Source: Miltoncostaea oceani | GTDB lineage: Bacteria; Actinomycetota; Thermoleophilia; Miltoncostaeales; Miltoncostaeaceae | Direction: 5' to 3' | Length of the DNA: 64,000 nucleotides | NCBI RefSeq assembly: GCF_018141545.1 | Contig: NZ_CP064356.1 | Span: 372,001 to 436,000, forward strand | Part shown: piece by piece, positions 52,316 to 53,515 of the stretch | Numbering within the stretch: the stretch's first letter is position 1 | Layout of the letters: every line of letters starts with the position of its first letter | Notes under the pieces: model-generated | Seen by the model: only the letters and a program-made list of their open reading frames with translations | Told to the model about the DNA's origin: nothing | Database searches by the model: none | Program-made: the position numbers and the translations under genes

Positions 52316-52344
52316 TTGACCTTGTATGGAGCCAGGCCTTAAGT
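52316..52344 (+). promoter_or_regulatory. Sigma-70-like promoter of the repeat-protein gene
   Basis: TTGACC, a 17-base spacer and TTAAGT, 64 bases before the ATG. It is the cleanest housekeeping-type promoter in the window and lies in a locally less GC-rich stretch (TTGTATGGAG). A palindrome begins on its last base. Confidence 0.65.
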
Positions 52345-52363
52345 TCGTGCCGCACGGCACGAA
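52344..52363. promoter_or_regulatory. Perfect palindrome at the expected transcription start
   Basis: TTCGTGCCG, then CA, then CGGCACGAA: 9-bp arms with a two-base centre, starting at the last base of the -10 box. Its position suits a repressor operator; it could also fold as a short 5' hairpin in the mRNA. Confidence 0.55.
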
Positions 52364-52408
52364 GCCGTCCCGCTATCCCGTGACCGAAACCCGCCGGAGG
52401 AAGAGTTC

Positions 52409-53515
52409 ATGAGTCGTCCTCGACGTTTCCTGCCCCCGATCGCCGGAGGGGCCCAGACCACCGGCTGGGAGGCGCTGGAGAAGTGGGTCGGCGGGTCGGG
52501 TGGCTCCGCGTCCGGCGACGCCCCCGCGGCGGCCGCGACCGGCAAGACCGGTTGGGAGGCCCTGGAGAAGTGGGTCGGCGGCGGGTCCGGCGGCGGCGCG
52601 TCCGCGGCCCCGGCGGCGACGGGCAAGACGGGCTGGGAGGCCTTGGAGAAGTGGGTCGGCGGGGGCTCCGGCGGGTCCTCGTCGGCCGCCGCCCCCGCGG
52701 CGGCCGCGACCGGCAAGACCGGCTGGGAGGCCCTGGAGAAGTGGGTCGGCGGCGGGTCCGGCGGCGGCGCGTCCGCGGCCCCGGCGGCGACGGGCAAGAC
52801 GGGCTGGGAGGCCTTGGAGAAGTGGATCGGCGGGGGCTCCGGCGGGTCCTCGTCGGCCGCCGCCCCCGCGGCGGCCGCGACCGGGAAGACCGGTTGGGAG
52901 GCCCTGGAGAAGTGGGTCGGCGGCGGGTCCGGCGGCGGCGCCTCCGCCGCCCCGGCGTCCTCCTCGGTCCCGGGCGCGGCCCCGGCGGGCGGCACCGGCT
53001 GGGAGGCCCTCGAGAAGTGGGTGGGCGGCGGCTCCGGTGGCGGGGCGTCCGCCCCGGCGTCCCCCTCCGGGAAGACCGGTTGGGAGGCCCTGGAGAAGTG
53101 GGTCGGCGGCTCGGCCGGCGGCGCGGCCGCGGCGACCCCGGCGGCGGACGCCCCGGCGTCCTCCTCGGTCCCGGGCGCGGCTCCGGCGGGCGGCACCGGC
53201 TGGGAGGCCCTGGAGAAGTGGGTCGGCTCGGGCTCCGGCCCCGGCGGCGCATCCGCGGCGACCCCGGCGGCGGACGCCCCGGCGTCCTCCTCGGTCCCGG
53301 GCGCGGCCCCGGCGGGCGGCACCGGCTGGGAGGCCCTCGAGAAGTGGGTCGGCGACAGCGGCACGTCCGCGCCGCCGCCCGCGGCGACCGCCTCGAACGG
53401 CGCCGCGGCGTCCGAGGGCGCGGGCAGCGCCCCCGCCCCCGCCGCGTCGGCGGAGGCCCCGGCCGAAGCCGGCGGCTTCATCGGCTTCCTCAAGCGCCTC
53501 TTCGGCGGCAAGTAG
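52409..53515 (+). CDS. Ten-repeat TGWEALEKWVG protein, function unknown
   Basis: 368 residues with no recognisable family. The sequence TGWEALEKW(V/I)G occurs ten times, starting at residues 18, 47, 74, 104, 131, 161, 196, 223, 263 and 305. The linkers (15-31 residues) are Gly/Ser then Ala/Pro, of three types: ones ending in TGK, a Ser-rich version, and ones with ASSSVPGAAPAGG. The N-terminus is basic (SRPRR) and the C-terminus (residues 357-367, FIGFLKRLFGG) is cationic and amphipathic. Each repeat has two Trp and a net charge of -1. There is no signal peptide or membrane helix. GGAGGAAGAG gives a strong ribosome site. This looks like a multivalent scaffold or linker; a multi-core peptide precursor is an alternative, but no modifying enzyme is nearby. 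Confidence 0.88.
   Translation: MSRPRRFLPPIAGGAQTTGWEALEKWVGGSGGSASGDAPAAAATGKTGWEALEKWVGGGSGGGASAAPAATGKTGWEALEKWVGGGSGGSSSAAAPAAAATGKTGWEALEKWVGGGSGGGASAAPAATGKTGWEALEKWIGGGSGGSSSAAAPAAAATGKTGWEALEKWVGGGSGGGASAAPASSSVPGAAPAGGTGWEALEKWVGGGSGGGASAPASPSGKTGWEALEKWVGGSAGGAAAATPAADAPASSSVPGAAPAGGTGWEALEKWVGSGSGPGGASAATPAADAPASSSVPGAAPAGGTGWEALEKWVGDSGTSAPPPAATASNGAAASEGAGSAPAPAASAEAPAEAGGFIGFLKRLFGGK
52547..52888 (+). repeat. 171-bp tandem duplication inside the repeat gene
   Basis: Two consecutive 171-bp units (57 codons, each holding two repeats) are almost identical in DNA, differing at a few bases including the GTC to ATC change that gives WIGG in repeat five. The two copies of the same unit also share silent positions (GCCTTGGAG in the second half), so this is a recent duplication rather than convergence. 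Confidence 0.85.

Follow-up and report, generated by a model that had tools for sequence, protein, structure and literature searches.

What might a protein do that carries the same 11-residue word ten times over? The question arises from a 64,000-nucleotide stretch of the Miltoncostaea oceani genome (contig NZ_CP064356.1; the window, in what follows), in which an ATG-initiated open reading frame at 52409-53515 on the + strand codes for a protein of 368 aa. Its ten 11-residue units, nine reading TGWEALEKWVG and one TGWEALEKWIG (unit 5), contribute two Trp each; there is no Trp elsewhere and no Cys, the linkers between the units are rich in Gly, Ala, Ser, Pro, and Thr, and the protein runs from a basic N-terminus (MSRPRRF) to the C-terminal tail GGFIGFLKRLFGGK. 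The putative docking unit, written as a peptide, is GKTGWEALEKWVGGG. An earlier sequence-only reading had described the ten-unit frame, its linkers, the basic N-terminus, and the cationic tail, all of which the sequence bears out, with the following features:

52409..53515, + strand: ten-unit repeat protein gene (368 aa plus stop), from the open reading frame, its orthologues, and selection
52421..52453, + strand: N-terminal motif RRFLPPIAGGA; genera other than g10 conserve it in the form [RF]xxPPxxGGA
52460..52492, + strand: unit 1, TGWEALEKWVG, from sequence
52547..52579, + strand: unit 2, TGWEALEKWVG, from sequence
52628..52660, + strand: unit 3, TGWEALEKWVG, from sequence
52718..52750, + strand: unit 4, TGWEALEKWVG, from sequence
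52799..52831, + strand: unit 5, TGWEALEKWIG, from sequence
52889..52921, + strand: unit 6, TGWEALEKWVG, from sequence
52994..53026, + strand: unit 7, TGWEALEKWVG, from sequence
53075..53107, + strand: unit 8, TGWEALEKWVG, from sequence
53195..53227, + strand: unit 9, TGWEALEKWVG, from sequence
53321..53353, + strand: unit 10, TGWEALEKWVG, from sequence
53471..53512, + strand: C-terminal amphipathic tail GGFIGFLKRLFGGK, a putative MinD-like membrane-targeting helix, from GFLKRLFGG identity to E. coli MinD and a predicted helix

Profile searches of Pfam, NCBIfam, and PHROG returned no match to the window protein, and the PDB holds no related solved structure; homology to a characterized family, looked for in these profiles and structures as grounds against novelty, was not found. 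The protein is undescribed, as the sequence-only reading had it, but it does not stand alone: the gene is conserved throughout the family Miltoncostaeaceae. Homologues were identified in 35 of 42 genomes of this family, M. oceani included, when 101 genomes around M. oceani were searched, and no match outside the family reached E 0.001. A class-level search of 399 genomes gave clear scores in Miltoncostaeaceae only, with two others marginal (0.002 and 0.007), and among the 396 genomes searched at the phylum level nothing outside the family matched at 1e-4. When 85,000 species genomes were scanned, 30 loci with orthologues emerged, titled as Thermoleophilia, Miltoncostaeales, or Miltoncostaeaceae, or generically as actinobacterial or bacterial, together with a few evidently mislabelled MAGs. 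Loci L034, L045, and L051 are titled 'Bifidobacterium breve', yet they carry the repeat gene in Miltoncostaeaceae gene order and are apparently mislabelled MAGs. A search of viral contigs and plasmids found no relatives of the repeat protein.

Gene order is constant at the 30 loci as far as their contigs extend (pyrE-rsgA-[repeat gene]-NUDIX-ASCH-groES-groEL), except that in genus g10 an inserted gene, for an aldolase of the DeoC/LacD family, separates the repeat gene from NUDIX (e.g., L043:8435-9538). That 30 loci, each fetched independently, place an orthologue with this word in the same position is more than chance would give. Seven of the 42 family genomes gave no match, but in these the assembly lacks the rsgA side of the locus, has it at a contig end, or shows rsgA only as a partial and weaker match, so that loss of the gene from these seven is not demonstrated. 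The ten-unit gene is present once in the M. oceani genome, and the repeat gene is a syntenic, family-wide, single-copy gene of the Miltoncostaeaceae, within the Thermoleophilia; judged by its sequence and that of its relatives, the window frame is a real, translated, orthologous gene.

The gene was also said to have its own promoter and terminator, of which the first is supported. Upstream of the start codon we recognize the following elements:

52316..52321, + strand: putative -35 element TTGACC, part of TTGACC-N17/18-TA[AG]GTT conserved upstream in non-g10 genera
52340..52345, + strand: putative -10 element TAAGTT, 18 nt from TTGACC and conserved in other genera
52344..52363, no strand assigned: inverted repeat TTCGTGC-N6-GCACGAA, also found upstream of orthologues at about ten loci
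52396..52401, + strand: Shine-Dalgarno sequence GGAGGA, 7 nt ahead of the ATG, from sequence

The promoter rests on its conservation across genera; a consensus promoter scan did not report TTGACC/TAAGTT for the repeat gene, and a scan for a classical terminator after the gene found none. The inverted repeat lies just downstream of the -10 element, and relatives in other genera carry compensatory variants of it (TTTGTGC...GCACAA, in L009 and L029). It may serve a dedicated regulator as operator, or else form a hairpin in the 5' part of the mRNA, although the RNA leader with the inverted repeat folds no better than shuffled sequences. A shared regulon was considered and rejected, since TTCGTGC-N6-GCACGAA occurs once in the whole 4.5 Mb genome, at the repeat-gene promoter only.

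What could the units be for? Identical short segments repeated within one frame might be the cores of a ribosomal peptide precursor, each released and modified, a role that the sequence-only reading had thought less likely. We now reject it as highly improbable: the conserved neighbours are housekeeping genes that include no modifying enzyme, protease, or exporter, the supposed cores are identical over more than 10 genera, and the protein has a membrane-anchor-like tail while lacking a leader or signal. A conserved neighbour is likewise rejected as the client, since all are housekeeping and the g10 aldolase gene is not common to other genera. Short helical motifs repeated along a disordered chain are also the layout of the Rubisco and carboxysome/BMC linkers EPYC1 and CsoS2, which had been offered as precedents. 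As to the client this analogy fails, because the Rubisco large chain (PF00016, which did match in control genomes) and the BMC shell protein (PF00936) were each found in 0 of the 26 family genomes searched, and an equivalent of either linker is next to inconceivable here. Of 42 genomes, 40 encode SepF, among them almost every carrier of the repeat gene, which therefore does not simply replace it; an FtsZ tether in place of SepF is rejected, leaving room for a role of the repeat protein beside SepF. A second SepF-like gene is present in G012, G021, G023, and G025, and also in G008 and G013.

The units are far more uniform than the chain that joins them. Among 154 units from 30 genomes, collected with a search that required a TGWE start, Thr1, Gly2, Trp3, Glu4, and Leu6 are invariant (154/154), position 7 is Asp or Glu, position 8 is mostly Lys, position 9 is Trp with a few His or Tyr, and position 10 is Val. 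Beyond TGWE units, the orthologues have Trp at three kinds of place only: the tail, the N-terminal motif (once, in two related proteins), and units truncated where a contig stops. No degenerate unit that retains Trp has therefore been overlooked. The pN/pS ratio of the units is 0.18, and 76.7% of the base differences between genomes in the units fall at third codon positions; on these sequence comparisons, strong purifying selection on the units at the protein level is clear. Units within a genome differ at somewhat fewer synonymous codons than units from different genomes (1.54 versus 2.26), showing that recent duplication has contributed, although such copying could not have held the word constant across genera.

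The linkers, in contrast, vary freely across the family, at 11-37 residues and composed mostly of A, G, S, P, K, T, D, and E, and the number of units ranges from 2 to 14 per protein, although counts from short-read MAGs are uncertain; in the two genomes that are close to finished the numbers are 10 and 14. A family-wide invariant word set in such linkers strengthens the multivalent-scaffold interpretation that the sequence-only reading proposed. That reading also suggested looking for the word in other proteins, and as a clue to the partner this was unrewarding: GWExL[DE]xW has zero occurrences at other loci of the family genomes. In one clade (L049, L050, L056, and L060) His or Tyr takes the place of the unit's second Trp (WEALEKHV, WEALEKYV), which offers a handle for locating a co-varying client pocket. 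In L005 and L024 the last unit is separated from the tail by an additional charged segment that resembles a coiled coil. The RRFLPPIAGGA-type N-terminal motif, kept in most genera and missing in g10, is perhaps a second docking motif.

An AlphaFold2 run on eight sequences (mean pLDDT 46; pTM 0.19) predicts a short helix for every one of the ten units and another for the tail, residues 357-365, where confidence is best, and leaves the linkers unstructured; confidence is low overall, and within it the prediction agrees with the short helices and disordered linkers anticipated from the sequence. No packing of unit against unit is predicted, which at this confidence is weak evidence. It bears on the idea that the units bind one another through Trp stickers and so build, on the membrane, a condensate or mesh that is homotypic and needs no separate client. 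Uniform units at a valency of 2-14 do give the protein a stickers-and-spacers layout, but homotypic binding has no need of strict identity that extends to Thr, Gly, and Glu, some genomes hold merely 2-3 units, and we consider this explanation improbable.

The tail points to the membrane. E. coli MinD ends in KKGFLKRLFGG, the last nine residues of which (GFLKRLFGG) are identical to the tail of the window protein, and KGFLKRLFGG of MinD has been employed as a transplantable membrane tag (PMC5471200). The tail drifts among the orthologues (FMGWLKRLFGG, LVAALKRLFGG, FMGWLKRLFGGK, LVAALKRLFGGK, FWDKLKAFFSGK, and similar), and in L010, where the gene keeps its usual place with rsgA on one side and NUDIX/ASCH on the other, the tail is missing and the C-terminus is instead MFAGVSAIGWALGIALLVIGVVILIVALLS. 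The 19-residue Kyte-Doolittle mean of this segment is 3.27; no other complete orthologue exceeds 1.23. Exchange of the tail for a transmembrane segment, although observed in one genome only, is best explained if the amphipathic helix and the transmembrane segment share one job. Together, the comparison with MinD and the L010 exchange argue that the C-terminal tail is a membrane anchor, and they strengthen the suggestion in the sequence-only reading that the terminal helix is a membrane tag. A stringent tail pattern matched the repeat gene alone among family proteins, and a PDB search with the tail alone returned nothing.

If the tail binds lipid, the units might do so too, as amphipathic helices in a membrane or lipid-granule coat resembling perilipin, alpha-synuclein, or phasin, with the tail as another lipid anchor. 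This is the main rival to a docking scaffold, and we regard it as a minority possibility. The hydrophobic moment of the unit is 0.60, greater than in about 97% of shuffles, its two Trp would suit a membrane interface, and the tail itself is of a lipid-binding type. Lipid-binding helices drift, however, as the tail does, whereas T, G, W, E, and L of the unit are constant in every copy; the net charge of the unit (WEALEKWV) is -1, unlike that of helices that bind anionic bacterial membranes, and a helix of two turns is short for such a role. Since the tail drifts and can be replaced and the unit does not drift, docking of the unit in a specific protein is favoured over binding to lipid.

The best explanation, to which we give a probability of about 0.6, is a membrane-tethered multivalent docking scaffold, with membrane binding, client docking, and clustering all inferred; the ten-motif protein probably brings copies of a partner protein together at the cell membrane. 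In this model, each TGWE[A]L[DE]KWVG unit would fold, alone or upon binding, into a two-turn amphipathic helix with a Thr-Gly cap and with Trp3, Leu6, Trp9, and Val10 on one face, and would dock in one pocket of a single client protein, itself conserved across the whole family Miltoncostaeaceae. Linkers of 11-37 residues, of Gly, Ala, Ser, and Pro, would allow 2-14 unit copies to hold several client molecules together, while the MinD-type helix, or the transmembrane anchor in one genus, would keep the string close against the inner side of the membrane. The client would thereby be clustered locally at the membrane, with unit number setting the valency. Counting against this model are the lack of an obvious partner among the housekeeping neighbours, the amphipathic character of the unit, which could itself bind lipid, the low AlphaFold2 confidence, and the confinement of the transmembrane exchange to one genome.

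More tentatively, we speculate that the protein is a family-specific membrane-anchored condensate or polar/septal organizer that uses one invariant 11-residue docking word and a ligand-pocket pair of its own, unrelated to described hubs (PopZ, DivIVA, and CsoS2). If true, this would be a class of bacterial membrane scaffold carried by an entire family. The word is short and unique to one gene per genome, so the partner should be findable by a single peptide pull-down, and the natural range of valency (2-14) and of anchor type (amphipathic or transmembrane) would provide a system for valency and tethering control of membrane condensates.

Among known systems, GW182-type GW-repeat proteins bind Argonaute through many Gly-Trp motifs, borne on a disordered chain and docking in Trp pockets. 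Compared by description, the repeat protein likewise has multiple Gly-Trp motifs in a disordered chain, but the GW182 type is eukaryotic and differs in spacing and context. With MinD, the repeat protein shares the short cationic amphipathic helix at the C-terminus, GFLKRLFGG included; unlike MinD, it has no P-loop ATPase domain by Pfam, and its tail is joined to a disordered repeat chain, so that the likeness is probably convergent.

EPYC1 and the green-lineage Rubisco linkers have a repeated helix in a disordered linker (PMC11570498). The repeat protein follows the same stickers-and-spacers logic, but EPYC1 is eukaryotic and has a pyrenoid client. The client being absent and there being no sequence relation, the repeat protein is not a member of the Rubisco linkers. 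EPYC1 and the green-lineage linkers are not known to have a membrane tail. CsoS2, the alpha-carboxysome scaffold, carries four repeated helical Rubisco-binding motifs in its N-terminal region (PMC10614612). It resembles the repeat protein in being a disordered chain with short helical motifs split by linkers, and in multivalent docking as proposed here; the two have no sequence relation, however, the Miltoncostaeaceae searched have neither Rubisco nor shell proteins, and, unlike CsoS2, the repeat protein has near-identical units, up to 14 of them, and a putative membrane-targeting tail. Multivalent enzyme-clustering linkers are known mainly from carbon fixation. In the repeat protein, an actinobacterial family devoid of Rubisco would keep a multivalent linker of its own, one whose chromosomal place is fixed, whose docking word is invariant, and whose membrane anchor can be exchanged.
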